Positions 2,119 to 30,944 of a DNA stretch of 43,441 bases are shown here, piece by piece. The notes below the pieces were generated by a model. That model did not search any database. It was not told where the DNA came from and was given only the letters and a program-made list of their open reading frames with translations. This DNA is from Blastococcus sp. CT_GayMR16 (GTDB lineage: Bacteria > Actinomycetota > Actinomycetes > Mycobacteriales > Geodermatophilaceae). Position 1 is the stretch's first letter. The number at the start of each line of letters is the position of its first letter. The stretch is taken from assembly GCF_004570875.1 (NCBI RefSeq), contig NZ_SPQK01000027.1, forward strand, positions 1 to 43,441, in the 5' to 3' direction. A program made the translations under genes and the position numbers.

Positions 2119-2159
2119 TGCGGTCCTCCGGACCGCACCGCGGCCAGGAGCCGTCCCCA
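2119..2159 (+). repeat. Post-stop repeat element, copy 1
   Basis: Starting 10 bases after the ABC1 kinase stop is the perfect hairpin TGCGGTCCTCCGGACCGCA (2119-2137), followed at once by the core CCGCGGCCAGGAGCCGTCCC (2138-2157). The same hairpin-plus-core arrangement follows the stop codons at 11305, 27751 and 30945 (minus strand), always with the hairpin nearest the stop. The 19-base hairpin recurs, inverted, at 2239-2257, directly after the stop of the facing 54-residue ORF, without the core. See findings for the family. Confidence 0.8.
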
Positions 2160-2185
2160 CTCAGGGCGACACCCCCCACCAGTCA

Positions 2186-2231
2186 CGAGGCCGGTTCCGA
2201 ACGCTCCCGGTGAGCGTCGGAACCGGCCTCG
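2186..2231. terminator. Bidirectional terminator-like hairpin between convergent genes
   Basis: A long inverted repeat: arms 2186-2206 and 2212-2231 pair over ~20 bp with one unpaired base (arm begins CGAGGCCGGTTCCG). It sits between the ABC1 kinase and the facing minus-strand 54-residue ORF and is itself flanked by the two inverted copies of the 19-base hairpin. There is no U tract, which is common for high-GC actinobacterial terminators. Confidence 0.75.
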
Positions 2232-2238
2232 CAGGCAG

Positions 2239-2257
2239 TGCGGTCCGGAGGACCGCA
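2239..2257 (-). repeat. Post-stop hairpin without core (half copy)
   Basis: TGCGGTCCGGAGGACCGCA is the exact reverse complement of 2119-2137. It begins 3 bases past the TAG stop of the minus-strand small ORF (stop 2261-2263), so each of the two convergent genes carries the same hairpin after its stop. Confidence 0.75.
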
Positions 2258-2260
2258 GTT

Positions 2261-2425
2261 CTAATAGACGGCGGCGCTGGCGCGCGCCGCACGGCGGACG
2301 GCGCGCTCGGCGCGCCGGGCCGCACGGCGGGCCACGTAGAGCCGGCGGGCGCGCGAGGCAGCCTCGGCGTGAGCCTGGTCCTCGTGCATCCGGCTCTGGG
2401 CCAGATCGTGTTCGATCAGGTACAT
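2261..2425 (-). CDS. Small hypothetical basic protein (54 aa) downstream of whiB7
   Basis: 54 residues from ATG at 2425, with an AGAAGGA ribosome site just upstream. The first half is acidic/polar (MYLIEHDLAQSRMHEDQ); the second half is a run of Arg and Ala (RRAARRAERAVRRAARAS), predicted helical and strongly basic. No Cys, no membrane segment, no recognised family. It follows whiB7 on the same strand after a 74-base gap holding a hairpin, so it may be co-transcribed. The good ribosome site and post-stop hairpin support a real gene; the function is unknown. RNA or DNA binding is only a guess from charge. Confidence 0.6.
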   Translation of the reverse strand: MYLIEHDLAQSRMHEDQAHAEAASRARRLYVARRAARRAERAVRRAARASAAVY

Positions 2426-2453
2426 GGCGGTTCCTTCTGGATGAGTACTCGAT

Positions 2454-2473
2454 CCCCCGCTGCTGAGCGGGGG
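2454..2473 (-). terminator. Hairpin between whiB7 and the 54-residue ORF
   Basis: Reads CCCCCGCTCAGCAGCGGGGG on the minus strand: an 8-bp perfect stem with a CAGC loop, 27 bases after the whiB7 stop. With no U tract it could be a partial terminator or an mRNA 3'-end stabiliser. Confidence 0.6.
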
Positions 2474-2499
2474 CATGGCGATGGTGTTGCGGTCGGGGC

Positions 2500-2844
2500 T
2501 CACGCGGCGGCCACCTTGCGGGGACGTCCCCGCGGCCGCTTGCGGGCGATCACCGAGCCGCGCTCGAAGATCTCGCCGCCCCAGACACCCCAGGGCTCTG
2601 CCCTGTCGAGGGCGCCCGCGAGGCAGGCGTCCCGGACCGGGCAGTCGGCGCAGAAGCTCTTGGCGAGCTCGAGCTGTGCCGGCGTCTCGGCGAACCACAG
2701 GTCCGGGTCCTCGACCCGGCACGGCAGTGGGCGCCGTACCGGGGCCGGGGCCGCCGGGGTGTGGGGTCGCCTCGGTGGGAATCCCCCGGTCCAGGGGAGC
2801 CCGGGTCGGCGGTGGGACGACGGTCGATCGATCGTCTGCTGCAC
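2500..2844 (-). CDS. whiB7: WhiB7-type transcriptional regulator
   Basis: 114 residues from GTG at 2844, six bases after AGGAGGAG. It has the four WhiB iron-sulfur cysteines (LPC, then FCADCPVRDAC), the GVWGGE turn, and a C-terminal RGRPRK AT-hook that marks the WhiB7 subfamily. WhiB7 binds the primary sigma factor and AT-rich DNA just upstream of -35 elements, and activates intrinsic antibiotic-resistance genes after ribosome stress. The ~500-base leader with an upstream ORF and terminator, and the AT-rich box at the promoter (see separate entries), match the autoregulated, attenuated whiB7/wblC genes of mycobacteria and streptomycetes. The neighbouring uvrD2 and ABC1 kinase are the conserved partners. 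Confidence 0.95.
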   Translation of the reverse strand: MQQTIDRPSSHRRPGLPWTGGFPPRRPHTPAAPAPVRRPLPCRVEDPDLWFAETPAQLELAKSFCADCPVRDACLAGALDRAEPWGVWGGEIFERGSVIARKRPRGRPRKVAAA

Positions 2845-2920
2845 TGCCGCTCCTCCTTGTTCCTCGTCTGCGACGGCCGGCGGAGTCCCGCCGACCGGTG
2901 GTCGGTGCCGGGTGTCGCGG

Positions 2921-2965
2921 ACAAAGAGAAAGGCCGCGGATCCCGGGGTTCGGGTTCCGCGGCCT
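2921..2965 (-). terminator. whiB7 leader attenuator (intrinsic terminator)
   Basis: On the minus strand AGGCCGCGGA (2965-2956) pairs with TCCGCGGCCT (2940-2931), with inner CCC/GGG pairing, followed by TTCTCTTTGT. It starts 21 bases after the stop codon of the leader ORF and ends 77 bases before whiB7. A clear U-rich tract is rare in this window, which supports a true attenuator. A CCTCG near the end of the leader ORF could pair with CGAGG at the foot of this stem and act as antiterminator; that pairing is inference. Confidence 0.85.
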
Positions 2966-2985
2966 CGTGGAGGACCGGTCGAGCG

Positions 2986-3264
2986 TTAGCTCGTCGGTCT
3001 CCTCGAGGAACAGATCCCGAGGGTGGTGCCGATGGAGTTGTGAGCGACGGTCTGCGTCTGGATCGGGCCGGTCGCCTGGAAGGCGGGGCGCAGCCGGACA
3101 GCGGCGCCGCCTGCGGGCACACCGGTCCCCAGGACCGGAGCGACACGCGGCGCAGGGCTGACGGCGATGCCGGTGCGGGCGTCGTAGCCCATGCAGCGGC
3201 GCACGTCGGAGCTGCCCGGGCCGAAGAGATCGGCGGGGGCCTTCGTCCACGTCGTGGTGATCAT
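2986..3264 (-). CDS. whiB7 leader ORF (upstream ORF, 92 aa)
   Basis: 92 residues (begins MITTTWTKAPADLFG, ends GICSSRRPTS) starting at ATG 3264 behind the strong ribosome site GGAGAGGAGGGGG, ~70 bases after the predicted transcription start. It ends 21 bases before the attenuator stem. No domain is recognised. Position matches the upstream ORF of the whiB7/wblC leaders, where ribosome stalling prevents terminator formation; that mechanism is known from relatives, not shown here. It is longer than the short upstream ORFs I recall from mycobacteria. It might also be a functional small protein. Confidence 0.7.
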   Translation of the reverse strand: MITTTWTKAPADLFGPGSSDVRRCMGYDARTGIAVSPAPRVAPVLGTGVPAGGAAVRLRPAFQATGPIQTQTVAHNSIGTTLGICSSRRPTS

Positions 3265-3340
3265 CAGGTGCCCCCTCCTCTCCGGACTCGTTCCCGGCCA
3301 GGGCGGCCGGGATCGCGGGGTGCAGTTCGTGTGTGCAGGG

Positions 3341-3379
3341 ACATTAAGACCGCAGCCGTTGCGGGGTCAATCGAATTAA
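3341..3379 (-). promoter_or_regulatory. whiB7 promoter with WhiB7 AT-rich box
   Basis: Minus strand: TTAATT (3379-3374), 3 bp, -35 TTGACC (3370-3365), 18 bp, -10 TAATGT (3346-3341). WhiB7 is known to act at an AT-rich element about 3 bp upstream of the -35, exactly this geometry, so autoactivation is likely. The AATTAA stands out in DNA this GC-rich. Transcription should start near 3334, giving a ~490-base leader. Confidence 0.8.
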
Positions 3380-3442
3380 CGAGAACATCCTCCGGACGTG
3401 TCCTGATCGGTGCCGGAACCCGCCCGCCGTGCCGTTCGGGAG

Positions 3443-5461
3443 TCAGCCGCTGACGGTCGCGAGCACGTCCTCGCCGTAGAGATCGAGCTTGCGCGCCCCG
3501 ATCCCCGGCAGGGACGACAGCTCCATCAGGTTCGCCGGTCGGGTCTCCGCGATCGCCTGCAGGGTGGCGTCGGTGAACACCACGTACGCGGGGACGGACG
3601 CCGACTGCGCCGCCTGACTGCGCCACGCCCGCAGCCGCTCGAAGAGCTCGCCGGCGGCGCCTTCGAGGACGACCTTCTGCTTCTTCCCCGGACGGCGGGG
3701 GCCCGGCGCGTTCGGCGACGACTCCGGGGCGATGCCGGTCAGGAACCGGCTCCGCGGCCGGGCCCTCTTGGCCCCCGGGTTGCGCGCCAGCGACCACGAC
3801 AGCGTCAGCACCTCGCGCGCGCGGGTCACGGCGACGTAGAGCAGCCGCCGCTCCTCCTCGACCGCCTCCGGCCGTGCCAGCGACTGGGCGATCGGGACGA
3901 CGCCGTCGACCAGGCCCACCACGAAGACGGCGTCCCATTCCAGGCCCTTGGCGGCATGCATGGACGCGAGGGTGACGCCCTGCACGGTCGGTGCGTGCTG
4001 GGCGTTCGCGCGCTCGGCCAGATGTCCGACGAAGCCCGCGAGGTCGAGCGTCGGGGTCTCGGCGACCAGGTCGACAGCCAGGTCCACGAGGGCGGACAGG
4101 GACTGCCACCGGTCGCGCGCCGCCCCGCCGGCCGGCGGACGGTGCTCCGCCCAGCCGGTCGAGGCCAGGACGTCGCGGACCGTCGGCACAAGGGCTCCGG
4201 GGTCGCTGCCCCCCGCCGCCGCACCGCGCAGCAGCAGCACTGCTTCACGGACCTCGGGCCGCTCGAAGAACCGCTCGCCGCCCTTGAGCACGTACGGCAC
4301 GCCGACGTCGGTCAGGGCCGCCTCGTAGACCTCGGACTGGGCGTTGATGCGGAACAGCACCGCGATCTCCGCCGCCGGGGTGCCGGAGTCGATCAGCGAC
4401 TTGCACCGGGCCGCGACGGCCGCCGCCTCGGTGGGCTCGTCCGGGTACTCCGCGAAGGTCGGCTCCGGCCCGTCGGGACGCTGGCCGAGCAGGCGCAGCC
4501 CGGGCAGGCCCTTGCGCCGGGTCGCCTGGCCGATCAACCGGTTCGCCAGCGCGACGACCTGCGGCGTCGACCGGTAGTCGCGCTCCAGCTTGACCACTGC
4601 GGCGTCGGCATAGCGGTCGGCGAAGCCGAGCAGGTAGTCGGGATCGGCCCCGGTGAAGGAGTAGATCGTCTGGTTGGGGTCGCCGACGACGCAGATCTCG
4701 GCCCGCCCCCCGAGCCAGGCGTCGAGCAACCGCTGCTGGAGCGGGTTGACGTCCTGGTACTCGTCGACGACGAAGTGCCGGTACTGGCCACGCACCTCGC
4801 GTGCGACGGCGGGGTGCTCCTCCAGCGCGTAGGCGGTGACCAGCAGCAGGTCCTCGAAGTCGAGTGCGCCGTCCCGCTGCTTCGCGGACTCGTAGCTGGC
4901 GTACACGGCGGCGACCGCGGCCGCCTCGAACGGCGGCTCCCGGCCCGCGGCCTTCGCGCGGGCCGGGTAGTCCTCCGGAGTGGCCAGCGTCGTCTTCGCC
5001 CATTCGATCTCGCTCGCCAGGTCACGCAGGCTTGCCCGGTCGGTGGACAGGCGGGAGCGCGAGGCCGCCGTCGCCACCAGCCGCAGCTTGTTCTCGACGA
5101 GCGACGGCATCGGACCACCGAGCACGCGGGGGGCGAAGTAGCGCAGCTGGCGCATCGCCGCCGCGTGGAAGGTGCGCGCCTGCACCCCGCCGACGTCGAG
5201 GGCGGCCAACCGGCCACGCAGCTCCCCCGCTGCGCGGGCGGTGAACGTCACCGCCAGCACCTGCTCCGGCACGTAGACGCCGGTGTGCACGCCGTAGGCG
5301 ATGCGGTGGGTGATCGTGCGGGTCTTGCCCGTCCCGGCGCCGGCGAGGATGCAGACGGGGCCGGACACGGCCTGCGCCGCGGTCCGCTGTTCCTCGTCGA
5401 GGGCGGCGAGCACGGTCTCCGCACGGGACATGGTTCCGGTCTGCGCACCGATCAACGACAT
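3443..5461 (-). CDS. uvrD2: UvrD2-like superfamily 1 DNA helicase with HRDC domain
   Basis: 672 residues from ATG 5461, which follows GGGAGGGAGCC; the 22 codons upstream are Arg-rich and have no ribosome site. Walker A GAGTGKT is at 41-47, DEYQD at 233-237, QTIYSFTGADP and later the superfamily 1 motifs SMHAAKGLEWD and YVAVTRAR. The last ~75 residues form an HRDC domain (PAYVVFTDATLQAIAETRP). UvrD2 is a 3'-5' helicase/translocase, essential in M. tuberculosis. Between helicase and HRDC, mycobacterial UvrD2 has a tetracysteine module; here that linker (PESSPNAPGPRRPGKKQK) contains no cysteine. It is divergent from mrx1 and next to whiB7, as in other actinobacteria. Confidence 0.93.
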   Translation of the reverse strand: MSLIGAQTGTMSRAETVLAALDEEQRTAAQAVSGPVCILAGAGTGKTRTITHRIAYGVHTGVYVPEQVLAVTFTARAAGELRGRLAALDVGGVQARTFHAAAMRQLRYFAPRVLGGPMPSLVENKLRLVATAASRSRLSTDRASLRDLASEIEWAKTTLATPEDYPARAKAAGREPPFEAAAVAAVYASYESAKQRDGALDFEDLLLVTAYALEEHPAVAREVRGQYRHFVVDEYQDVNPLQQRLLDAWLGGRAEICVVGDPNQTIYSFTGADPDYLLGFADRYADAAVVKLERDYRSTPQVVALANRLIGQATRRKGLPGLRLLGQRPDGPEPTFAEYPDEPTEAAAVAARCKSLIDSGTPAAEIAVLFRINAQSEVYEAALTDVGVPYVLKGGERFFERPEVREAVLLLRGAAAGGSDPGALVPTVRDVLASTGWAEHRPPAGGAARDRWQSLSALVDLAVDLVAETPTLDLAGFVGHLAERANAQHAPTVQGVTLASMHAAKGLEWDAVFVVGLVDGVVPIAQSLARPEAVEEERRLLYVAVTRAREVLTLSWSLARNPGAKRARPRSRFLTGIAPESSPNAPGPRRPGKKQKVVLEGAAGELFERLRAWRSQAAQSASVPAYVVFTDATLQAIAETRPANLMELSSLPGIGARKLDLYGEDVLATVSG

Positions 5462-5552
5462 CGCCGGCTCCCTCCCTTGGTCCGCGCGGGGGCCGGCGCT
5501 GCGTCCGCGGCGTGCCCGTCGCCCCATCCTCTCAGCAGTTACGGACGATCCG

Positions 5553-5579
5553 GGGAAGCATCCCCAGGATGCCCGCGTT
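5553..5579 (+). promoter_or_regulatory. SigR/SigH-type promoter of mycoredoxin gene
   Basis: GGGAAG (5553-5558), 18 bp, GTT (5577-5579). Disulfide-stress ECF sigma factors of the SigR/SigH group recognise GGGAAT/C-N18-GTT; only the sixth base differs. The site lies 70 bases before the mrx1 start, and mycoredoxin is a known member of these regulons. The boxes also form the ends of a dyad (GGGGAA...TTCCCC). Confidence 0.6.
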
Positions 5580-5649
5580 CCCCTGTAGACCGCGGTTCCA
5601 CCCTCCCGGGGGTGGACCGTCCCGGCACGACCATGGAGGATCTCAACCG

Positions 5650-5916
5650 ATGACTGCGACTCCCGGCGCCCCCGTGACCATGTTCACCACCCAGTGGTGC
5701 GGCTATTGCGTGCGCCTGAAGAAGCTCATGCAGCGTGAGGGGATCGAGTTCGCCGAGGTCGACATCGAGAACGATCCCGCAGCTGCCGAGCTGGTCATGC
5801 AGGCCAACGGCGGCAACCGCACGGTCCCCACGCTGCTGTTCACCGACGGCACCGCCCTCACCAATCCGAGCATCGACCAGGTGAAGTCCCAGCTCGGTCA
5901 ACTCTCGGAGGCGTGA
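5650..5916 (+). CDS. mrx1: Mycoredoxin (mycothiol-dependent glutaredoxin-like)
   Basis: 88 residues from ATG 5650, with GGAGG 11 bases before it. The glutaredoxin fold signature is complete: MFTTQWCGYC with redox cysteines C17 and C20, VDIENDPAAA, cis-Pro in RTVPTLLFTDG, and a final helix. Mycoredoxin reduces mixed disulfides between proteins and mycothiol in the cytoplasm, so the organism should make mycothiol. Its position divergent from uvrD2 is as in M. tuberculosis (Rv3198A), and a SigR-like promoter precedes it. Confidence 0.95.
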   Translation: MTATPGAPVTMFTTQWCGYCVRLKKLMQREGIEFAEVDIENDPAAAELVMQANGGNRTVPTLLFTDGTALTNPSIDQVKSQLGQLSEA

Positions 5917-6037
5917 GAATCACGTGATCCCCGGTCCCCGGCCCTCGAAGGGGCATGATCGCCCCTCAGCGGGCCGCGACCGCGGCCATGAGACCGTCCG
6001 GCCCCTGCGGCCGGCTCTGCCACCGGAGGTCGCCGCC

Positions 6038-6688
6038 GTGACCTCGGACGTACCGCGCCCCGGACCCGCGGACGCCTTTCCCGCCCAGGGCATCCCGGTG
6101 TCGCTCACCCGCACGTCACGTGGCTGGTCGGTGCGCTCGCCCGCCGGCAGCGAGGACGCCGACGATCTGGTCGAGGGCCTCTCGCTGGCCGACCTGGTCG
6201 CCGAAGAGCTCGGCGCGCTGGCCGAGCCCGATCGCACCGCCCGCCGCTCGGCGCGGGGCCCCTCCGGCGCTCCCGAGGAGGCGGTCGACCCGGTGGACGC
6301 CCGCGTGGCCGCGCTGGAGCGCACCGTCGCCCAGCTCGAGCACGCCCTGGCCGCCCGCGTCTCCACCGAGCGCGCGATCGGGGTGCTGGCCGAGCGACAC
6401 GGGATCAGCGCCCGCGCCGCCTTCGAATCCCTGCGGGGTGATGCGCGGTCGCAGGGCCGCCCCGTTGCCGATCTCGCCCGGGAGGTCCTCGACGGCCTCG
6501 GCGGCGAGACGCAGGCCGCGCCCGAGGCCGACGTCCCGGCGCCCGCCGGTGGGCCCTCCGCCGATACCCGTTCGCTGCCTGCGCCCGGCCAGCGCCGGCC
6601 CGGCGCCATCGTCGCCCCGGTCGCGGCCCCGACCCCCCGCGCGCCCGCGGCGGCGCCGTCCGTCATCACGACGGACGGCCGGTCCTGA
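6038..6688 (+). CDS. ANTAR-domain protein
   Basis: 216 residues from GTG 6038, 8 bases after GGAGG. The N-terminal ~80 residues are of unrecognised type. The segment from RVAALERTVAQLEHALAAR through STERAIGVLAERHGISARAA to VADLAREVLDGL has the three-helix ANTAR pattern (RNA-binding antitermination domain). The last ~70 residues are Pro/Ala-rich and look disordered. There is no GAF, PAS or receiver domain, so how it would sense a signal is unclear. It overlaps the next gene's proposed start by 4 bases, suggesting translational coupling. The domain call rests on pattern only. Confidence 0.65.
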   Translation: MTSDVPRPGPADAFPAQGIPVSLTRTSRGWSVRSPAGSEDADDLVEGLSLADLVAEELGALAEPDRTARRSARGPSGAPEEAVDPVDARVAALERTVAQLEHALAARVSTERAIGVLAERHGISARAAFESLRGDARSQGRPVADLAREVLDGLGGETQAAPEADVPAPAGGPSADTRSLPAPGQRRPGAIVAPVAAPTPRAPAAAPSVITTDGRS

Positions 6689-7335
6689 CCCGTCCCGAAC
6701 CGCTCACCCCGTCGGCCCTGGCCGACCGCCTCGCCGGACTCCTGGCCGGGCTGCGCCCCGATCCGGGTGCCGCGGCGCTGCGCGTCGCCGTCGACGGTCC
6801 GGAGCCCGCCGGACCCGACGCGCTCGCAGACGCCATCGCCGCGCGCCTGCCGGCCCTGGGCAGGCCCGCGGTGGTGGTGCCCGCGAGCGGCTTCTACCGC
6901 CCCGCGTCCCTGCGCCTGGAACACGGCCGGACCGATCCGATGGCGCGGTACACCGACTGGCTGGACGTCGGCGCGCTGGCCCGCGAGGTGCTGAACCCGG
7001 TCGGCCCCGGCGGCTCGGCCACCTACCTGCCGGTGCTGTGGGACCTCGAACGGGACCGCGCCGCCCGCGCCCGGCCGCAGCCGATGCCGGCCGACGGCGT
7101 CCTGCTGGTGCCGGGCGCGCTGCTGCAGGGGGTCGGTCTGGCTTTCGACGTCGTCGTCCACCTGCGGGTCGGCCCGGCGGCCCGGCGGCGACTGACGGCG
7201 CCCGAACAGGCCTGGGAGCTGCCCGCCTTCGACCGCTACGACGACGAGGTGGACCCGGTGGTGCTGGCCGACGCCGTCGTCCTGGCCGACCATCCCGACC
7301 GCCCGGCGCTGGTGCTGGCCGGCCGGTTCAGCTGA
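6685..7335 (+). CDS. Uridine-kinase-like protein with degenerate P-loop; probable CTG start
   Basis: The frame continues from the ANTAR gene junction to 7335 (~216 residues). The fold resembles actinobacterial uridine kinase-like NTPases: a beta strand leading to VAVDGPEPAGPDALAD where GxxxxGKT would be, then FYRPASLRLEHGRTDP and YLPVLWDLERDR. The P-loop Lys and Ser/Thr are replaced (GPEPAGPDAL), so ordinary ATP hydrolysis is doubtful. No ATG, GTG or TTG lies between the ANTAR stop and GTG 6871, and a start there would delete the P-loop region. CTG 6685, overlapping the TGA as CTGA, is the best candidate. It converges on nudC with an 8-base overlap. Confidence 0.6.
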   Translation: MTRPEPLTPSALADRLAGLLAGLRPDPGAAALRVAVDGPEPAGPDALADAIAARLPALGRPAVVVPASGFYRPASLRLEHGRTDPMARYTDWLDVGALAREVLNPVGPGGSATYLPVLWDLERDRAARARPQPMPADGVLLVPGALLQGVGLAFDVVVHLRVGPAARRRLTAPEQAWELPAFDRYDDEVDPVVLADAVVLADHPDRPALVLAGRFS

Positions 7336-8305
7336 AGTCGCCGGCGAGCCAGCGGTCGAGGATGTTGCGCGCGATCGACACCGGGGGCGGGAGGGCACGC
7401 GGCCCCTCCCCCGCGAGCAGCTCCGCACGGGTGAACCAGCGGGCCTCCTCGATCTCGTCGGGGTCAAGCCGGAGCGGCTCGTCGCCGTCGGCCCGGGCCA
7501 CGAAGCCGAGCATCAGCGACTGCGGGAACGGCCACGGCTGACTGGCCACGTACCGGATGTCGCTGACCTGCAGCCCGACCTCCTCGGCCACCTCACGGGC
7601 GACGGCCGCCTCGGCGGACTCCCCGGGCTCGACGAAGCCGGCCAGGATCGAGAACCGGCCGGGAGGCCAGACCGCCTGGCGACCGAGGACGACCCGGTCG
7701 GCGCCGTCGTGGACGAGCATGATCACGGCGGGGTCGGTGCGGGGGAAGACCTCGGTGCCGGTGGTGGGGTCCCGCTGCACCCATCCGTGACGCTCGATGG
7801 TCGTGGCGGCCCCGGTCGACGGACTGAACCGGTTTCGCTCGTGCCATTCGAGGATGCCGATGGCCTGGACGAGCAGGCCCGCGTCGAGGTCGGCGAGGTC
7901 GGCGCCCACCTCGCGCAGCCCGGTCCACGTGTCGACCGGCCGCCCGCTGACGGTGAGCGAACGCTCGCCCCGGACGGCGGCATAGGGGACGCCGTCGGCC
8001 TCCCCGAGGTAGATCGCGCCGAGCGGTAGTTCGGGCTGCTCGTCCCAGACCAACGCCGGCCCAACGGGGCCTTCGACCACCGGAACCGTCCGCTTGCCGT
8101 CGACGGTGAGCACCCGCACGGAGCGGCCGCCGGTCGGGTCGGGCAGCGACCGGGCCAGGTGCCCGCGGTCGTGGGCCACCCGCGACAGCACCGGCACGCC
8201 GCCGTCGGAGTCACGGGTCTTCTCCGGCCAGGCCGACTCGGCGGCGGAACGCTCCGCCGGGGGCGGGTTGTCCGCCCGGGTGCTGCCCCCCGCGGGAACG
8301 CTCAT
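7328..8305 (-). CDS. nudC: NAD(+) diphosphatase / RNA NAD-decapping Nudix hydrolase
   Basis: 325 residues from ATG 8305, overlapping the upstream M16 gene as ATGA. It carries the Nudix box (GFVEPGESAEAAV then REVAEEVGL) and the NudC-specific SQPWPFPQS motif that separates NADH pyrophosphatases from other Nudix enzymes. It should cleave NAD(H), and possibly NAD caps on RNA. The zinc-ribbon segment between N- and C-terminal domains, normally with four cysteines, here reads RFSPSTGAATTIERHGW and then DPTTGTEVFPRTD, with no cysteine at all. The N-terminal ~40 residues are variable. Last gene of an operon with the two M16 peptidases. Confidence 0.92.
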   Translation of the reverse strand: MSVPAGGSTRADNPPPAERSAAESAWPEKTRDSDGGVPVLSRVAHDRGHLARSLPDPTGGRSVRVLTVDGKRTVPVVEGPVGPALVWDEQPELPLGAIYLGEADGVPYAAVRGERSLTVSGRPVDTWTGLREVGADLADLDAGLLVQAIGILEWHERNRFSPSTGAATTIERHGWVQRDPTTGTEVFPRTDPAVIMLVHDGADRVVLGRQAVWPPGRFSILAGFVEPGESAEAAVAREVAEEVGLQVSDIRYVASQPWPFPQSLMLGFVARADGDEPLRLDPDEIEEARWFTRAELLAGEGPRALPPPVSIARNILDRWLAGDFS

Positions 8306-10973: not shown

Positions 10974-10980
10974 GGAGGCG

Positions 10981-10986
10981 ACAGTA
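10981..10986 (-). promoter_or_regulatory. -10 box, leaderless promoter of the M16/nudC operon
   Basis: TACTGT (fits TANNNT) ends 7 bases before the GTG start at 10973, so transcription would begin at or next to the start codon. No Shine-Dalgarno sequence is present. Confidence 0.55.
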
Positions 10987-11021
10987 ACCGCGGATCGTCG
11001 GCGAGCGCCGACCGCACCACC

Positions 11022-11282
11022 GGTGGATCGGTCGCGAGGGCCCGGAGGGTCCTCGACCGGGACACGGGAACCGGCTCAGCCCAGCAGGGGCACGGCTCCT
11101 GGCCGCGGTGGTGGACCGGTCGCCGGGGCCCGCAGGGTCCCCGACCGGGACACGGGGACGCGCTCAACGCAGATGGGGACGGCTCCTGGCCGCGGTGGTG
11201 GACCGGTCGCCGGGGCCCGCAGGGTCCCCGACCGGGACACGGGGACGCGCTCAACGCAGATGGGGACGGCTCCTGGCCGCGG
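11022..11282. repeat. 87-bp tandem repeat, three copies
   Basis: Units at 11022-11108 (diverged), 11109-11195 and 11196-11282; I see no difference between the last two. Each unit runs from GGTGGACCGGTCGCC through GCAGGGTCCCCGACCGGGAC to GACGGCTCCTGGCCGCG. The end of each unit is the reverse complement of the post-stop repeat core found at 2138, so this is a local amplification of that element. The array fills the 331-base gap between the DUF2510 gene and the M16 operon. Open frames crossing it are chance products of the repeat. Confidence 0.88.
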
Positions 11283-11301
11283 TGCGATCCGGAGGATCGC
11301 A
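11261..11301 (-). repeat. Post-stop repeat element, copy 2
   Basis: Read on the minus strand after the DUF2510 stop: hairpin TGCGATCCTCCGGATCGCA (11301-11283), then CCGCGGCCAGGAGCCGTCCC. This differs from the 2119 copy by a compensated pair in the stem (G to A and C to T), so the pairing is kept. Confidence 0.8.
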
Positions 11302-11304
11302 GTG

Positions 11305-12183
11305 TCAGAGCACTTCGACGGCCTCGAGCACGCGGTCGATGACGCCGTAGAGCTCGGCGTGGGTGTTCGGGATCGAGATGTACACCAGCGCCGGCGCCGG
11401 GCGGCCGACGTCGATCAGCAGCAGCGCCGCTCGTTCCCCGCTGGCGTTGTAGCCGGGCACGTCCCAGGCGAGCTGGAACTCGTACAGGTGGGCCTCGTGC
11501 CCGTCGACGGTGCGGGCCTCGTCGCGCAGCACCTCGCGCTCGTTGGGGCGCGGGTAGTAGTTCTGGCGCACGCTGTCGGCGACCGCCGCCAGCGTCGTCT
11601 GCAGCGTCGACGGGCCGGCGTACCCGAAGCGGTCGATCAGCGGCCCCGACGAACACTGCGAGATGAAGGTCTTGCCGTCGGGGGTGAGCTCCTGGGTGGT
11701 GAAGTACTGCCCCGCGGTGTCGGTGGTCTCCTCCTGGTCCCAGAGCGCCCACTCGTACCAGCCATCGCCGAGGAACGGGTAGGAGACGCCGGAGACCTCG
11801 TCGATGATCCGCACCGTGCCCGGCGGGAACGTGGGCCCGGCCGGGGGCGCCTGAGCCGTCGGCGCCGCGTCCTCCACGGCCGGCTCATCGCTGCCCTGGC
11901 CGACGAAGAGCGCCGCACCCACCACGGCGAAGATCACCAGCAGTGAGATGCCGACGATCCACGGCGTGCGGTTCCCCGCGGCGGGGGGCAGAGGCTCGGG
12001 CCAGGCGGCGGGCCCCGACGGCGGAGCCGGGGGCGCGAGAACGGGCGAGGACTGGACGGCGACGCCCGGCCCGGCGGGGGTGGCGACATCGGACCAGCTG
12101 ATCCCGTTCCACCACCGCACCATGCCGTGGGCGCCGTCCGGGTCGGGGTACCAACCGGGAGCCGGCTGCGCTGGTCCGGTCAC
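11305..12183 (-). CDS. DUF2510 membrane-anchored protein
   Basis: 292 residues from GTG 12183. PGWYPDPDG (9-17) and RWWNGISW form a DUF2510 domain, followed by a Pro/Ala linker, one membrane segment (WIVGISLLVIFAVVGAALFV, ~75-94), and an ~190-residue C-terminal domain that should lie outside the cell. That part has a single Cys (ISQCSSG) and no family I recognise. A TAGGCT box 6 bases upstream suggests leaderless expression, divergent from the methyltransferase gene. The function is unknown; DUF2510 proteins are common small membrane-associated proteins of actinobacteria. Confidence 0.85.
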   Translation of the reverse strand: MTGPAQPAPGWYPDPDGAHGMVRWWNGISWSDVATPAGPGVAVQSSPVLAPPAPPSGPAAWPEPLPPAAGNRTPWIVGISLLVIFAVVGAALFVGQGSDEPAVEDAAPTAQAPPAGPTFPPGTVRIIDEVSGVSYPFLGDGWYEWALWDQEETTDTAGQYFTTQELTPDGKTFISQCSSGPLIDRFGYAGPSTLQTTLAAVADSVRQNYYPRPNEREVLRDEARTVDGHEAHLYEFQLAWDVPGYNASGERAALLLIDVGRPAPALVYISIPNTHAELYGVIDRVLEAVEVL

Positions 12184-23554: not shown

Positions 23555-23628
23555 CTGTCGATGGAATCACGGACCAGGGACAGTTCCGGGACGCCTGGGA
23601 CAGATGGGAGGCACGCCTCAGGTCGGCG

Positions 23629-23799: not shown

Positions 23800-23890
23800 G
23801 CCCTTGTGGTCGGCAGAATCCGGGGCCGGCTGAAGGCGATGCGACGAACTGGTCCGCACGGGGTAGACGGTCACACCCCGGCAACACGCC

Positions 23891-24190: not shown

Positions 24191-24215
24191 ATCGTCGTAC
24201 AGGTGCCGGGAGTGG

Positions 24216-24800: not shown

Positions 24801-24935
24801 GCCCGTCAGTGAACAGGGCGAGGGCCCGGCCCGCCTCCCTCGTCGCCGGTCCTCTTGCCGAACGGCGCCGGCAGGCCCTGAGATGACGGTCGTCGAGCAG
24901 CGGGGCAGCCCCGCCGGACCCGGAGAGGTGCATCC

Positions 24936-26258
24936 GTGACGGACACCGACGCAGTCAAGTCCCAACTGCGCGACGACCTCCGGCACCGCCTCCGACCGAT
25001 GAGGGGGCGGGATCCTGACGAGCGGGGCCGGTCGGCGACCCCGCTCGAGCTGTTCTACGACCTGACCTACGTGGTCGCCTTCGGAGCCGCGGCGGCGCAG
25101 CTCGCCCACCACGTCATAGACGGCGAGGTGGGCCCGGCGATCGGCGCCTTTGCCTTCGCGATCTGGGCGGTGAGCTGGGCGTGGATGAACTTCACCTGGT
25201 TCGCCTCCGCCTATGGCAACGACGACGCCCTGTTCCGGATCGCGACCATCGTGCAGATGATCGGCGTCGTCATCCTGGCGCTGGGGCTGCCAGTGAGCTT
25301 CGACGCCGCCGCAGAGGGACACAGTCCCAACAATGCCTTGATGGTCGTCGGCTACGTGATCATGCGGGTCCCGCTCATCGGGCTGTGGCTCCGCGCTGCG
25401 CAGGAGGACCCGGCTCATCGGCGAACCGCTGTCGCGTACGCGATCATCATCGCGATCGCGCAAGTCGGTTGGGTGTTGACCACGGTGGTGCACCTGCCGG
25501 TGGGAGTCACCGTCGGCGCGCTGGTGGCACTGGCGCTGGCGGAGATGGTGGCCCCGGTCGTGGCGGAGCGGCGACTCGGGCCGGTGCCGTGGAACGCGGG
25601 GCACATCGCAGAGCGCTTCGCCCTGCTCACCCTCATCTGCCTGGGCGAGGTCGTCGCTGCGACGACGGGAGCGGTCGCCACTCTCACCGGCGCGCAGGGC
25701 TGGTCGGTCGCGGCCGCGGTGATCGCCGCGTCCGGGCTTCTGCTCGCCGCGGCGCTGTGGTGGGCCTACTTCCTGATCCCCTCGCGAGCGATCCTGGAGG
25801 AGTGGCCTGGTCGCACCGTCGCCTGGCGGTATGCCCACCTGCCGATCTTCGGCGCCATCGTCGCGGTAGGAGCAGGGCTCGAGGTCGCCGCGGCCGCCGT
25901 GGAGGAGGCGGACCTGTCGCTGCTGACGGTCTCCCTCGCCCTCGTCGTGCCCGTGGGCGCAGTCATCGTGACGATCTTCGCGACGTGGAGCGTGCTGATG
26001 CACTCCTACGACCTGACGCACGTGCCGCTGTTCCTGCTGTCGCTGGTGCCCTTGGCTGCGGCGCTCGCGGTCGGCCTCGCGGCAGGTCCCGACGACCCCG
26101 TCGGCTTCCATGGGTCGCCGGGGGACACCACCGCCCTGGTGGCGGTGATCGCGCTCGTCATGCTGTCGGCCGTGGTCGAGGTGGTCGGCCACGAGAAGGT
26201 GGGATACCCCCACACGATCCGGGTCATCGAGGCCAAGGCCTCAGCCCGACCGGGCTGA
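24936..26258 (+). CDS. LtrA family (low temperature requirement protein A) membrane protein
   Basis: 440 residues from GTG 24936, behind GAGAGG. The conserved N-terminal TPLELFYDLTYVVAFG and WAWMNFTWFAS segments mark the LtrA family, followed by about ten to twelve hydrophobic helices. It is an inner-membrane protein; the family's biochemical role is unsettled. Codons look slightly less GC-rich than those of flanking genes, and it interrupts the order seen in mycobacteria, so it may have been inserted here. A perfect terminator hairpin follows. Confidence 0.9.
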   Translation: MTDTDAVKSQLRDDLRHRLRPMRGRDPDERGRSATPLELFYDLTYVVAFGAAAAQLAHHVIDGEVGPAIGAFAFAIWAVSWAWMNFTWFASAYGNDDALFRIATIVQMIGVVILALGLPVSFDAAAEGHSPNNALMVVGYVIMRVPLIGLWLRAAQEDPAHRRTAVAYAIIIAIAQVGWVLTTVVHLPVGVTVGALVALALAEMVAPVVAERRLGPVPWNAGHIAERFALLTLICLGEVVAATTGAVATLTGAQGWSVAAAVIAASGLLLAAALWWAYFLIPSRAILEEWPGRTVAWRYAHLPIFGAIVAVGAGLEVAAAAVEEADLSLLTVSLALVVPVGAVIVTIFATWSVLMHSYDLTHVPLFLLSLVPLAAALAVGLAAGPDDPVGFHGSPGDTTALVAVIALVMLSAVVEVVGHEKVGYPHTIRVIEAKASARPG

Positions 26259-26280
26259 GCCGCCGGCGGCCGTTGACGAC

Positions 26281-26318
26281 GACGGCCAGGTCGCCCCCGA
26301 GGGAGCGACCTGGCCGTC
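26281..26318. terminator. Bidirectional terminator between ltrA and moeZ
   Basis: Perfect 14-bp arms GACGGCCAGGTCGC (26281-26294) and GCGACCTGGCCGTC (26305-26318) with a 10-base loop, 22 bases after the ltrA stop and 7 bases after the moeZ stop. Confidence 0.85.
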
Positions 26319-26325
26319 GGTCGTG

Positions 26326-27486
26326 TCAGTAGGTCGGGAGCGCCTTGTCGATGCGGGTGGCCCACGCCGTCACGCCGCCCTGGACGTGCACGGCGTCCTT
26401 GAAGCCGGCCTGCTTGACCGCGGCCAGCACCTCGGCCGAGCGGACGCCGGTCTTGCAGTGCAGCACGATCGGACGGTCCTGCGGCAGCTGCGCCAGCGCC
26501 CGGCCGGAGAGCAGCTCGTCCTTGGGGATGAGCTTGGCGCCGGGGATCGACACGATCTCGTACTCGTTGGGCTCACGGACGTCGATCAGCTCGAAGTCCT
26601 TGCCGGCGTCCATCATGTCCTTCAGCTCGTCGACGGTGATCGTCGAGCCCGCGGCGGCCTCCTGGGCCTCGACCGACACGACGCCGCAGAAGGCGTCGTA
26701 GTCGATGAGTTCGGTGATCGGCTCACCCTCGGGGTCCTTGCGCACCTTGATCGTGCGGAAGGTCATCTCGAGGGCGTCGTAGACCATGAGCCGACCGAGC
26801 AGCGTGTCACCGATGCCGGTGATCAGCTTGACCGCCTCGGTGGCCTGGATCGCGCCGATGGTCGCGCAGAGGACGCCGAGCACGCCGCCCTCGGCGCAGC
26901 TCGGGACCATGCCGGGCGGCGGGGGCACCGGGTAGAGGTCGCGGTAGTTCGGGCCGTGCTCGTTCCAGAAGACCGAGACCTGGCCGTCGAAGCGGTAGAT
27001 CGAGCCCCAGACGTAGGGCTTGTCCAGCAGCACGCACGCGTCGTTGACCAGGTAGCGCGTGGCGAAGTTGTCGGTGCCGTCGACGATCAGGTCGTAGTCG
27101 GCGAAGATCTCCAGCACGTTCTCGCTGTCGAGCCGCGTCTCGTGCAGCCGGACGTCGATCAGCGGGTTGATCTCCTTGATGGAGTCGCGCGCGCTCTCGG
27201 CCTTGGACCGGCCGACGTCGGACTGCCCGTGGATGATCTGGCGCTGCAGGTTCGACTCGTCGACGGTGTCGAACTCGACGATGCCCAGCGTGCCGACGCC
27301 GGCCGCGGCGAGGTACATGAGGACGGGCGAGCCGAGCCCACCGGCGCCCACGGCGAGCACCTTGGCGTTCTTGAGCCGCTTCTGCCCGTCCATGCCGACG
27401 TCGGGGATGATCAGGTGGCGGCTGTAGCGGCGGACCTCCTCGATCGAGAGGTCGGCGGCGGGCTCCACCAGGGGTGGCAGGGACAC
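26326..27486 (-). CDS. moeZ: MoeZ/MoeB-type sulfur-carrier adenylyltransferase-sulfurtransferase
   Basis: 386 residues from GTG 27486, 7 bases after AGAGGAG. N-terminal E1 domain: GAGGLGSP (47-54), DESNLQRQ, DGTDNFATRYLVND, PSCAEGGVLG. C-terminal rhodanese domain with active-site HCKTGVRS (Cys ~345). It lacks the CxxC zinc pairs of E. coli MoeB, as do other actinobacterial MoeZ proteins. It adenylates and thiolates the C-terminal glycine of ubiquitin-like sulfur carriers for molybdopterin, thioamino acid or siderophore synthesis. A SigR-type promoter upstream links it to thiol stress. Confidence 0.95.
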   Translation of the reverse strand: MSLPPLVEPAADLSIEEVRRYSRHLIIPDVGMDGQKRLKNAKVLAVGAGGLGSPVLMYLAAAGVGTLGIVEFDTVDESNLQRQIIHGQSDVGRSKAESARDSIKEINPLIDVRLHETRLDSENVLEIFADYDLIVDGTDNFATRYLVNDACVLLDKPYVWGSIYRFDGQVSVFWNEHGPNYRDLYPVPPPPGMVPSCAEGGVLGVLCATIGAIQATEAVKLITGIGDTLLGRLMVYDALEMTFRTIKVRKDPEGEPITELIDYDAFCGVVSVEAQEAAAGSTITVDELKDMMDAGKDFELIDVREPNEYEIVSIPGAKLIPKDELLSGRALAQLPQDRPIVLHCKTGVRSAEVLAAVKQAGFKDAVHVQGGVTAWATRIDKALPTY

Positions 27487-27542
27487 GGGTTGCTCCTCTT
27501 GGATCCGACTACGGCCCACGCGGAGCCGTCGTTCACGCGAGT

Positions 27543-27569
27543 AACAGCGTCCCACCCGCACGGATTCCC
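27543..27569 (-). promoter_or_regulatory. SigR/SigH-type promoter of moeZ
   Basis: Minus strand GGGAAT (27569-27564), exactly 18 bp, GTT (27545-27543). This matches the disulfide-stress sigma consensus fully; the start codon is 57 bases downstream. Confidence 0.7.
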
Positions 27570-27597
27570 GACTCGACCCGGTGTGGCCGAGGTGTGA

Positions 27598-27750
27598 GGG
27601 CCCGGAGGGTCCTCCCGCCGAGGCCACGTGGGCCGCCCTGCGAGGTGCGGTTCACGAGCGGAGGCCGAAGGCCTCCCTAGAGAACCGCAGAACGGGCTCA
27701 GCGCAGGTGGGGACGGCACCTGGCCGCGATCGGGAGCGCGGAGCGCGACC
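27598..27750 (-). repeat. Post-stop repeat element, copy 3, with nested cruciform
   Basis: Directly after the DUF3152 stop (27751) is an imperfect GC hairpin, then CGCGGCCAGGTGCCGTCCCC and CTGCGCTGAGCCCG. Beyond these, 27646-27689 is a two-level palindrome: outer arms TGCGGTTC/GAACCGCA, inner arms GGAGGCC/GGCCTCC around GAA. The far end, GGGCCCGGAGGGTCCTC, also occurs at the outer end of the 11-kb array. The rest of the 264-base gap holds the moeZ promoter. Confidence 0.75.
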
Positions 27751-28704
27751 TCAAGGATAGGGCCACGCATTCTTCACGCAGCCGTCGAGGCCGAGGGTCT
27801 GCTGCTGCATGACCGGGGCGATCTCCCCGGTTCCCGGGCACGGCTCGTGGCCGTTGCCGAGCACGTGCCCGACCTCGTGGTTGATCACGTAGAGGCGGTA
27901 GGTCGCGATGTCGCCCTGGTAGTCCGGCACGGCCGTGGCCCAGCGGGCGAGGTTGATGGTGGCGCGGTCGCCGTAGCGGCAGGACGTGTATCCGCCAGTG
28001 CCGACGCCCGGGCAGTAGGTCTCCATGTTGCCGGGGCTGACCAGGCTCACCTTGAAGTCGAACTGCCCGGCGGCGGCCTCGGTGGCCCCGACCCGCTGGA
28101 AGGACATCCGGCCCTCGTTGCCCCAGGAGCGCGGGTCTCCGAGGGTCGACTCCACGGCGGCGGCGAACGCGGAGCCGTCGACGTCGATGCCGTCCTCCAC
28201 CTCCACGATGAAGCGCTGCACCGGGCCACTGCCGTAGACCTGGGACGAGCCGTCGACCACGGACAGTGAGCCCTCCCCGACCTCGACGTAGGTCTCCTCG
28301 CCCACCACCTGGGGGGCCTGGCTCGGCCCGACGTCGCCCTGGGCCGGGGCGGTCGGCACGCTCTCGACCGTCGGCACGGGTACGGAGGTGGCCGCGGTCG
28401 GCGCGGCGGCGCCGGCGGTCTGGGTGCCGGGTGAGCTGAGCGCGAGGTCCACGAGGACGGCGATCGTGGCGATCGTCAGCAGCGGGACGGCGTATGCGCG
28501 CCAGCCGTACCGGAGGACGAAGCGGCGTACCCGCCCCGGGCGGCTGCGGTTCGCCCCGCGCTCGCGCGGGGGCGCCGGGAGCGCGGGGCGGGCGACGAGC
28601 GGACCGGGGCGTGCCGGTCGCGGACTGCCGGGCCTGGGGTCTGCACGGCGACCATCCGCCGGGCGTCCTCCCACTGGCCGCACTCCTGGTCCTCGTTCGT
28701 GCAC
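27751..28704 (-). CDS. DUF3152 metzincin-like membrane-anchored protein
   Basis: 317 residues from GTG 28704; the N-terminal ~65 residues are Arg/Pro-rich and the start is uncertain. One membrane segment (YAVPLLTIATIAVLVDLAL, ~70-90) anchors an extracellular domain ending in NHEVGHVLGNGHEPCP. This is an HExxHxxGxxH zinc motif like that of metzincins, here HEVGHVLGNGH. Cysteines (ETYCPG, YTSCRY, EPCP, DGCV) could form two disulfides. It is orthologous by position to Rv3207c beside moeZ. A secreted or surface protease is inferred; the substrate is unknown. Confidence 0.87.
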   Translation of the reverse strand: MHERGPGVRPVGGRPADGRRADPRPGSPRPARPGPLVARPALPAPPRERGANRSRPGRVRRFVLRYGWRAYAVPLLTIATIAVLVDLALSSPGTQTAGAAAPTAATSVPVPTVESVPTAPAQGDVGPSQAPQVVGEETYVEVGEGSLSVVDGSSQVYGSGPVQRFIVEVEDGIDVDGSAFAAAVESTLGDPRSWGNEGRMSFQRVGATEAAAGQFDFKVSLVSPGNMETYCPGVGTGGYTSCRYGDRATINLARWATAVPDYQGDIATYRLYVINHEVGHVLGNGHEPCPGTGEIAPVMQQQTLGLDGCVKNAWPYP

Positions 28705-28717
28705 GGGCGTCAGCGGG

Positions 28718-29767
28718 TCAGCGTCTCACGCTCCGTGGCGTGTCGACTGCAGCCTGGGGTTCCCGGCACGTTGCCTCGTCCATGGCCTCGACCATGCCCA
28801 GCACCGCCCGGGCGGTCGGCTCCGGCGCCTCGAGCATCGCCACGTGTCCCACGCCGTCGAGCACGAGCAGGCGGGAATCCGGGACGACATCGGCGAGCCG
28901 CGGCGCGAGGGCCGGGTCGACCAGCCGGTCCTTGCCGCCCCAGATCACCAGCGTCGGCCGGCTGATCACTCGCGCCGCCCGCCAGGCGTTGGCCGCGCCG
29001 ACCCGCAGGTAGGACGTGATCAGCCCACGCATGCTGCGGGTGAGCGCGCGGTCGGCCCACGGCTGCTCGGACCGCTCGCGCATCTCCTGGACCGCCTGCT
29101 CCAGTCGCTCCGGCGGGACCCGGGACGGCTCGCCGAAGCACATCCGGACCATGGCCCGGACGCTTTGCTCCGGAGTGATGGCACCGATGCGGCGGGCGGC
29201 CAGGGAGGGGATTCCCGGAACCAGGAGCAGCAGCAGCGCCCGGTTGAAGGCCGGCGGAACCCGGTAGACGGGCATGGCCGGCGAGATCAGGGTCAACGAC
29301 GCGACCAGGTCCGGACGGCGGCTCGCCACCAGCAGGCTCACCAGCCCGCCGAGGGAGTTGCCCAGGAGGTGCACCGGCCGGCCTTCGCCGTCCCCCGGCT
29401 GCCGCCGGACGTGCTCCAGGACGTCGATGACGGCGTGCACGTGCCCTCGGATCGAGTAGCGCCCGCGCGGCGGCGGCTGCGAGCGGCCGAAGCCGGGCAG
29501 GTCGACCGCCCAGCCGTCGAACCGAACGGCCAGCAGCGCGGCGAGGTCGGTCCAGTTCGTCGATGCCCCACCCAGTCCGTGCACGTACAGAGCGCGCTCC
29601 CGCGGGCCCGCGGTGCCGTCGACCTGCCCCGTCCACGGGGTCGCGCGGACGAACACCTCACCGCCGCGTACGGCGATCTGCTCTCCCGGCCACGGCGGGA
29701 GCACGGACTTCAGCGGCGGCAACGGCGTGGTGGAGGCGGCGGCCTGCGCTGCGAGAACTTCGGACAT
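28718..29767 (-). CDS. Alpha/beta hydrolase (serine)
   Basis: 349 residues from ATG 29767. HGLGGAST (oxyanion), GNSLGG nucleophile elbow (Ser), WGGKDRLVDP (Asp) and GVGHVAMLE (His) give a complete triad, with a lid between the elbow and the Asp. It resembles lysophospholipase/esterase-type hydrolases. The gene precedes DUF3152 by 13 bases on the same strand, so they form an operon. TACCTT on the minus strand, 7 bases before the ATG, suggests leaderless transcription. Confidence 0.88.
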   Translation of the reverse strand: MSEVLAAQAAASTTPLPPLKSVLPPWPGEQIAVRGGEVFVRATPWTGQVDGTAGPRERALYVHGLGGASTNWTDLAALLAVRFDGWAVDLPGFGRSQPPPRGRYSIRGHVHAVIDVLEHVRRQPGDGEGRPVHLLGNSLGGLVSLLVASRRPDLVASLTLISPAMPVYRVPPAFNRALLLLLVPGIPSLAARRIGAITPEQSVRAMVRMCFGEPSRVPPERLEQAVQEMRERSEQPWADRALTRSMRGLITSYLRVGAANAWRAARVISRPTLVIWGGKDRLVDPALAPRLADVVPDSRLLVLDGVGHVAMLEAPEPTARAVLGMVEAMDEATCREPQAAVDTPRSVRR

Positions 29768-29774
29768 CCATTCG

Positions 29775-29810
29775 AAGGTAATCCCCGACCGGACGACGTG
29801 CGGTTGGGGA
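29775..29810. promoter_or_regulatory. Leaderless -10 box and possible TetR operator
   Basis: AAGGTA (29775-29780) is TACCTT on the minus strand, 7 bases before the hydrolase ATG. TCCCCGACC (29782-29790) and GGTTGGGGA (29802-29810) form a dyad with 8 of 9 bases paired and an 11-base spacer, between the hydrolase and the divergent tetR; this is a candidate operator. TAACAT at 29820-29825 is a likely -10 for tetR. Confidence 0.45.
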
Positions 29811-29835
29811 ACCCGCCGGTAACATCCCTTCCGTC

Positions 29836-30483
29836 ATGCAGCCGCCACGTCCCGCCGCCGTGAACAGCCGGCGCACCTCCCGCCTGCCGAGGGGTGCGCG
29901 CCGGCTGCAGCTGCTGCGTGCTGCACAGGACGTCTTCGTCGCCCAGGGCTTCCACGCCGCCGCGATGGACGACATCGCCGACCGCGCCGGGGTGAGCAAG
30001 CCGGTCCTCTACCAGCATTTCCCGGGCAAGCGGGAGCTGTACCTGGCGCTGCTCGAGGAGCACGTCTCCGAACTGGCCGCCCGCGTCGCCGAGGCCATGG
30101 GCAAGACCGACGACAACCGCGAGCGCGTGGACGGCGCCGTCGGTGCCTACTTCGACTTCATCGACGCCGAGGGCGAGGCCTTCCGCCTGGTCTTCGAGTC
30201 CGACCTGCGCAACGACGACGACGTCCGCGCCATCGTCGACCGCGGCACGCGCGTCTGCGTCGAGGCGATCGCCGGGGTGATCGCCGCCGACACCGGGGCC
30301 GACCCCGAGCGGGCGCTGCTGCTCGCCTCCGGGCTGACCGGGCTGGCCGAGACCAGCGCCCGGTGGTGGCTGCCGCGCAAGGGCACCGTGTCCCGGGACG
30401 AGGCGGTGTCCCTGATGTCGGCGCTGGCCTGGCGCGGCATCTCCGGCTTCCCCCGCGTCGACGGCGACCACACGTCGCACTGA
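29836..30483 (+). CDS. TetR family transcriptional regulator
   Basis: 215 residues from ATG 29836. The DNA-binding domain is clear: LLRAAQDVFVAQGFHAAAMDD then GVSKPVLYQHFPGKRELYLALL. The remainder is an all-helical ligand-binding domain with a single Cys (RVCVEA). It stands where Rv3208 stands in M. tuberculosis, before DUF3107, and is divergent from the hydrolase-DUF3152 operon, which it may regulate. Ligand unknown. Confidence 0.92.
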   Translation: MQPPRPAAVNSRRTSRLPRGARRLQLLRAAQDVFVAQGFHAAAMDDIADRAGVSKPVLYQHFPGKRELYLALLEEHVSELAARVAEAMGKTDDNRERVDGAVGAYFDFIDAEGEAFRLVFESDLRNDDDVRAIVDRGTRVCVEAIAGVIAADTGADPERALLLASGLTGLAETSARWWLPRKGTVSRDEAVSLMSALAWRGISGFPRVDGDHTSH

Positions 30484-30581
30484 CCCTCGTTCGCTGACGG
30501 CGCACCCGTTCGACGGGTCCCGGCCGCGAGGCCTGGACTAGCGTTGGGGTCAGTCGCGCGAACCGAGGAGGCATCGCTTAC

Positions 30582-30818
30582 GTGGAAGTCAAGATCGGTG
30601 TTCAGCACTCCCCCAGGGAGCTGGTCATCGACAGTCCCAAGACCCCTGAAGAGATCGCAGCCGATGTGTCGGCAGCCATGGCCGGCGGCACCAAGGACGG
30701 CCTGCTGACCCTGGTCGACGAGCGGGGTCGTCGCGTCGTCGTCCCTGTCGACCGGATCGCCTACGTCGAGATCGCGCAGCCCGACCAGCGCCGCGTGGGC
30801 TTCATCGCCGGCGCCTGA
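30582..30818 (+). CDS. DUF3107 small protein
   Basis: 78 residues from GTG 30582, with GAGGAGG upstream. The sequence MEVKIGVQHSPRELVID ... IAYVEIAQPDQRRVGFIAGA fits the DUF3107 family (Rv3208A/TB9.4 in M. tuberculosis), a compact mostly beta protein of unknown function. Cytoplasmic; no cysteines. A TAGCGT -10-like box at 30539-30544 suggests its own promoter. Confidence 0.9.
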   Translation: MEVKIGVQHSPRELVIDSPKTPEEIAADVSAAMAGGTKDGLLTLVDERGRRVVVPVDRIAYVEIAQPDQRRVGFIAGA

Positions 30819-30836
30819 CACAGAAACCAGCTCCAC

Positions 30837-30944
30837 CGGGCCCTCCGGTGTGGGGGCCGGAGGCCTCCCGCCGGGGGGCCCTGTCACGCTCGGCGCAAGG
30901 GCGGAGGGCACCTGGCCGCGGTGTCGGCCTGGAGGCCGACGATG
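30837..30944 (-). repeat. Post-stop repeat element, copy 4
   Basis: After the ferritin-like stop (30945), hairpin GTCGGCCTCCAGGCCGAC (30940-30923), then ACCGCGGCCAGGTGCCCTCC and GCGCCGAGCG. Further on are GC-rich palindromes (GGGCCC, GGAGGCCTCC). The stem sequence is entirely different from the 2119 copy but keeps the shape and the central CCTCC. It fills the 126-base convergent gap with DUF3107. Confidence 0.75.

Follow-up and report, generated by a model that had tools for sequence, protein, structure and literature searches.

A structured mobile repeat of the Geodermatophilaceae with an unusual anchor at stop codons

Several described families of short repeats bear comparison with the element considered here. 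BOX elements are built of modules A, B and C. Together with RUP and SPRITE, the BOX repeats of Streptococcus pneumoniae are intergenic, insert into one another and are in some cases terminator-like (PMC10969869). MIRUs insert at start codons, and the open reading frame (ORF) inside them is coupled with -4 spacing (PMC12548453). The subject of this report is a repeat from Blastococcus sp. CT_GayMR16, detected in a stretch of 43,441 nt (contig NZ_SPQK01000027.1, positions 1 to 43,441; hereafter the window), where six copies lie across four sites, 3' of genes for an ABC1 kinase (site A), a DUF2510-like protein (site B), a DUF3152 protein (site C) and a MiaE-like protein (site D).

This repeat is real, lineage-specific, structured and mobile, and it has an unusual anchor at stop codons. 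A literature search, with most subscription journals outside it, returned no description of the repeat, in agreement with the first-pass annotation of the window, which knew of no named element of this kind. It appears to be MIRU-like in placement and BOX-, SPRITE- or REP-like in build, with some of the defining features of each present and others absent. Like BOX, RUP and SPRITE, it is intergenic and modular, with tandem modules, but it belongs to an unrelated lineage, and the term 'stop codon' does not occur in the accessible part of the review of those elements (PMC10969869). It resembles REP and BIME elements as a short dispersed intergenic palindrome and differs from them in sequence and in lacking a Y1 transposase: Y1_Tnp (PF01797) is matched in 0 of 76 genomes of the family, while a control search matched 5 of 14 known genomes. 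The first hairpin of the repeat would be a ribosome termination structure, although that term describes a positional tendency across bacteria and not a common sequence or a mobile family.

Range and modular build

Across the genome, which comprises 47 contigs and 4.52 Mb, the core of the repeat has 24 exact matches against two for a reversed control pattern, and the core joined to a TGAGC box gave 21 rows against none, two of these rows being repeat readings of one copy. A covariance model (R1) was built from the 20 copies that form the rows of model alignment A3. Left out of A3 were, from the 24 exact-core loci, the tandem copies L003, L009, L010 and L015, L008 with its degenerate right half, and L018, which by eye has no element around the core and was judged a chance match; from the rows with core and TGAGC box, other members of arrays, L030 and L042 among them, were also left out. 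A search of the same genome with R1 at E up to 0.1 found at least 62 matches, grouped as 52 arrays, and because 150 candidates were scored, 62 may be a lower bound.

R1 matches were also obtained in 32 of the 61 genomes of a set of relatives, all of them in the Geodermatophilaceae. That family is assigned from the nearest named relatives of the asd gene beside one copy, among them Geodermatophilus siccatus, G. obscurus and Candidatus Blastococcus massiliensis. All 16 genomes of the genus (the source genome included) and 16 of the 21 from the rest of the family have the element, which occurs in eight other genera. No match was found in the five g6, g9 and g11 genomes of the family or in any of the 24 genomes from other families of the order, with at most 62 candidates scored per genome, and in a class-wide sample, with 15 scored per genome, the single match among 246 genomes is the source genome itself. 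On present evidence, the repeat is confined to the Geodermatophilaceae, as the lineage specificity proposed in the first-pass annotation had implied.

The aligned copies define a unit of about 110 nt, longer than core and hairpin alone. It consists of a left end (GCNRTGACAYTG), a hairpin (H1), the nearly invariant core (ACCGCGGCCAGGWGCCGTCCCC), a spacer, the box CTGAGC and a longer hairpin (H3) that ends in CGAC. The stem of H1 has 7-8 bp and its tip is mostly CTCCGG; a CTNCG tip is present in 108 of 134 copies of H1 and 85 of 132 copies of H3. The stems themselves vary, with 34 distinct 7-nt H1 arms recovered from 121 arrays by a simple finder, and in several copies CTGTCG lies close to the left end and CGACAG at the right. 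The H1 module and the core+H3 module have each spread in tandem separately, and site B contains one H1 and three core+H3 units. At G000:C22:316924-317078 (L106), five tandem H1 hairpins stand at 34-bp spacing, with joints GCCA/TGACATTG. A further common tail, approximately CTCGCAGGGCGGC, follows H3 in L072, L112, L115 and L206 and at window positions 27630-27645 (minus strand), and is possibly a subfamily module.

The statement in the first-pass annotation that the stems differ but keep pairing is supported; H1 is irregular at site C. Between copies 1 and 2, one pair is compensated (GCGATCC/GGATCGC in the former, GCGGTCC/GGACCGC in the latter). Standard pairs occupy 94.2% of cells in an alignment of copies from relatives (76 rows) and 90.3% in one from the source genome (58 distinct rows), and the covariation scores (0.241 and 0.244, respectively) exceeded those of all 500 shuffles and of every slid version of the structure, although both alignments were fitted to this structure and hence lean to it. 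Five H1 pairs in the alignment of relatives change on both sides, without one-sided change in those five. Mismatches in H1 comprise seven G-T and 16 A-C, and those in H3 29 G-T and 83 A-C, the latter figure being inflated by a fixed A-C mismatch. Selection on H1 acting through RNA only is not supported, given that wobble G-T is not enriched over A-C there. Either the arms of the stem seem to change in concert, or a few kinds of stem seem to be swapped as modules, a pattern that a DNA palindrome would explain no less well than slow compensation in RNA. Folding was compared with shuffles for two copies, of which one had greater stability (z -2.77) and the other did not (z -0.86). No T-run was seen after H1 or H3 in the aligned copies, which were read by eye with no terminator scan run.

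Mobility and placement at stop codons

The repeat is mobile: congeners hold a forward copy, a reversed copy or no copy at the same sites. At site A, compared in 16 genomes of the genus, it is forward in three (G000, G004, G014), reversed in seven (G001, G002, G007, G008, G010, G011, G012), reduced to H1 in G015 and absent in five (G003, G005, G006, G009, G013). At site B, compared in 15 genomes, it is forward in five (G000, G003, G008, G010, G013) and reversed in two (G004, G014); four (G002, G005, G006, G015) have a gap of 24-50 bp without the element, G009 has an H3 remnant, and G001, G011 and G012 have other sequence, while in G007 the gene end alone was seen. Site C was compared in eight relatives and site D in two, with no clean empty-site junctions because the downstream DNA differs. 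The gap between accD (a Carboxyl_trans match) and the small next gene, which we infer to be accE, contains the element in 5 of 14 genomes and lacks it in nine. For asd, 23 of 80 loci were read one at a time, and four of these gave no C-terminal motif. The element behind this gene is forward in G000, G010 and G031 and reversed in G. siccatus, and Ca. Blastococcus massiliensis, strain AZ43 and G. obscurus DSM 43161 have no copy within 150 nt of the stop. This presence and absence at orthologous sites confirms the earlier suggestion that the element spreads; the accompanying claim that its orientation is always the same is correct for the four window sites but fails more generally, as the reversed copies at sites A and B demonstrate.

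In G011, a different and unrelated hairpin repeat, with GGTGGGGGAGGACG units, stands behind the stop at sites B and C (L155, L166), and site B of G012 has a hairpin-rich stretch with GGGAGGAC in that position (L151). These sequences are possibly another post-stop repeat family.

Placement was assessed for 121 arrays, 52 from the source genome and 69 from relatives (sampled by best score), with genes called by a gene finder based on codon usage and trained on the same loci. Seven arrays flagged as lying inside a predicted gene were dropped. The remaining 114 include 57 in convergent gaps, 42 in tandem gaps in sense orientation, 12 in tandem gaps in antisense orientation and three in divergent gaps. 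Tandem gaps thus favour the sense orientation (42 versus 12, p 5e-5) without its being fixed, and the 12 antisense and three divergent arrays give no support to a fixed orientation or to the view that the element sits only at gene ends.

The post-stop preference, by comparison, is pronounced when tabulated. Among arrays that have a sense stop upstream and at least 20 nt of empty gap, and with uniform placement as the null, the left end lies no more than 5 nt from the stop, or overlaps it, in 46 of 73, against 5.9 expected. By the same distance measure, 8 of 35 right ends adjoin an antisense stop (3.1 expected, p 0.008), none of 38 adjoins a sense start (2.8 expected), and 3 of 14 left ends adjoin an antisense start (1.0 expected). 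Because an ORF that enters the element must end inside it, the test was repeated on copies wholly 3' of the stop; the left end was then anchored in 16 of 43 (3.75 expected), and in 12 of 29 for relatives (2.41 expected). The anchor belongs mainly to the left end, relatives included.

Stop-to-element distances, determined for 99 arrays, cluster at -2 (26 arrays), -10 (seven) and -22/-23 (four), and the clustered stops fall in the left end, the 5' arm of H1 or its 3' arm. The left-end TGA is preceded by A or G in 35 of 36 cases in which it is not the stop, compared with 68 of 174 ordinary TGA stops, and RTGA is therefore part of the element. A GTGA 5' arm is present in 7 of 7 copies with the gene end 10 nt inside, a figure that holds partly by definition, versus 3 of 114 others. 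Two G010 products, that of asd and one that by eye is cystathionine gamma-synthase-like, end in ATTL* and AMTL*, both encoded by the element. At sites A-D and in accD, genes that have the element and genes that lack it share an identical or almost identical C-terminus, and the gene at array C1:75637 has two codons fewer than in four empty relatives. Several empty sites have TGAC as their native stop context.

In the nine genomes with an empty accD-accE junction, the start of the second gene overlaps the stop of accD, at -4 in eight and at -1 in G005. Where the gap is filled, the -4 start is kept in G000 and G008, with its frame open through the element; the start lies beyond the element in G015, TTG codons alone are present beyond it in G009, and G002 was not resolved by the script. 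Since the element can sit between the coupled accD and accE, a strong terminator is unlikely.

The -4 start left in two filled genomes is one of several likenesses to MIRUs, which are likewise short mobile repeats of actinobacteria that insert at overlapping stop/start sites; here, it is the left end that carries RTGA. Insertion at RTGA/DTGA stop sites, a defining feature of MIRUs (in part from PMC12548453), is seen for the present repeat as well. Differences lie in its strong hairpins and in the half of its arrays that occupy convergent gaps. MIRUs are not known to have dyad symmetry. An internal ORF of the MIRU kind is not supported: an NTG frame is open in 32 of 56 copies versus 67% in shuffles, the regular expression having caught 56 of the 121 arrays. 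That frame is open at accD-accE in G000 and G008, and NTG-to-GAGC-box distances divide 25/13/13 by phase, a mild skew.

Copies in the window

Within the window, the core CCGCGGCCAGGWGCC has five exact copies, starting at 2138, 11094, 11181, 11268 and 30907, and a copy with one mismatch at 27715. With three mismatches allowed, 39 matches were found versus 26 expected, and such loose matches are thus mostly noise. The succession of stop, hairpin and core that the first-pass annotation described behind four genes was seen at all four sites, with 22-30 nt between the stop and the start of the core. The DUF2510 assignment is weak (19.6 bits versus a Pfam cut-off of 24), and the gene at site D, previously labeled ferritin-like, is present but matches MiaE-like.

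The site A copy (2109..2174, plus strand, 59 bits), behind the ABC1 gene (stop 2106-2108), comprises the left end GCGATGACATTG (2109-2120), H1 (2119-2137) and the core (2138-2152), and its right half is degenerate. The site B array (11022..11306, minus strand), detected by pattern and covariance-model matches, follows the DUF2510-like gene (stop 11305-11307) with its single H1 at 11283-11301 and the cores of its three core+H3 units at 11268-11282, 11181-11195 and 11094-11108. Behind the DUF3152 gene (stop 27751-27753), the site C copy (27644..27753, minus strand, 76.4 bits) has the irregular H1, the one-mismatch core (27715-27729), H3 and then the CTCGCAGGGCGGC tail. The site D copy (30836..30946, minus strand, 67.3 bits) lies in a convergent gap behind the MiaE-like gene (stop 30945-30947) and contains H1, the core (30907-30921) and H3. 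A lone H1 hairpin without a core is found at 2239..2257 (minus strand), 3' of a small minus-strand gene (2261-2425), on the basis of sequence, pattern match and gene call.

The convergent gap of site A also contains a long inverted repeat, GAGGCCGGTTCC...GGAACCGGCCTC (2187-2231). Most congeners have a similar hairpin in this gap, both with and without the element, which makes the long inverted repeat the likelier terminator there. An Rfam scan of the window (4227 covariance models, E up to 1) left the element unmatched and returned only a Guanidine-III riboswitch elsewhere, at 34971-35035 (plus strand, 54.1 bits, E 1.4e-8), where it overlaps the start of an ORF at 34972-35361.

Explanations of the stop-codon anchor

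The build of the repeat, the polymorphism and reversal at its sites, the anchoring of its left end at stops and the tandem spread of its modules are direct observations. The reading favored here, with a probability of roughly 0.6, is that they reflect mobile repeats of one family, modular, non-autonomous and about 110 nt long, which are aimed at, or retained at, stop codons. A trans-acting machine other than a Y1/REP transposase would join the left end to stop codons, or else an event guided by RTGAC homology would do so. The place of insertion would be tolerated because the left end brings its own TGA and leaves the coding sequence nearly intact. A stable hairpin would then lie a few nt 3' of the stop, and, in the least certain step, it may act as an insulator against re-initiation of translation or as protection for the mRNA on its 3' side. 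Several points weigh against this reading. An autonomous partner, an enzyme and a target duplication were not found, no systematic search for a partner or a duplication having been made; the strict anchoring test is weak in the source genome alone (4 of 14 versus 1.33 expected, p 0.03); the anchoring depends on an in-house gene finder, a uniform-placement null and best-scoring arrays from relatives; purifying selection alone could give the mild enrichment of right ends at antisense stops; and a single old insertion could account for the five filled accD-accE sites. A more specific proposal, rather doubtful, is a mobile 'stop-codon cassette' whose insertion is aimed at stops, perhaps in a way coupled to transcription or translation termination, which brings its own stop and hairpin and whose stem is refitted in both arms to set the in-frame stop.

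It is also conceivable, if improbable, that the repeat serves mainly to terminate transcription or to mark mRNA 3' ends, that selection maintains it behind genes and that its dispersal is secondary. The hairpin directly after the stop, the convergent placement of 57 of 114 arrays, and the strong pairing with CTNCG loops in most copies of H1 and H3 all agree with such a role, the UNCG-type loop being stable in RNA. However, 42 of the 114 arrays lie between codirectional genes, the element fills the accD-accE gap of 5 of 14 species, reversed copies occupy the same sites, H1 has no excess of G-T over A-C, and one of the two folded copies is no more stable than shuffles. A canonical terminator was rejected on the lack of a T-run in copies read by eye, and the terminator or RNA-signal role put forward in the first-pass annotation is unproven. 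Still less probable is a miniature inverted-repeat transposable element of a DDE-type insertion sequence, with an autonomous partner that is rare or lost and a stop placement due to TGAC target preference and purifying selection. The repeat is indeed short, multicopy and polymorphic, with CTGTCG and CGACAG near the ends of several copies and TGAC at several empty sites, but neither an inverted repeat common to all copies nor a target duplication was seen by eye, the empty sites being at least 7% diverged, and the H1 stems differ between copies. As a short palindromic intergenic repeat in many copies, it could finally be taken for a REP-like element moved by a Y1 (RAYT/IS200) transposase; the absence of Y1_Tnp from all family genomes searched, with a working control, rules this origin out for present-day genomes, and a past, now-lost enzyme is very improbable.

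A repeat that is anchored at stops and has a stop of its own, even between translationally coupled genes, represents a way for mobile DNA to colonise a gene-dense genome with little harm. The filled, empty and reversed alleles in related species form a natural test set for the effects of post-stop hairpins on re-initiation and on mRNA 3' ends.

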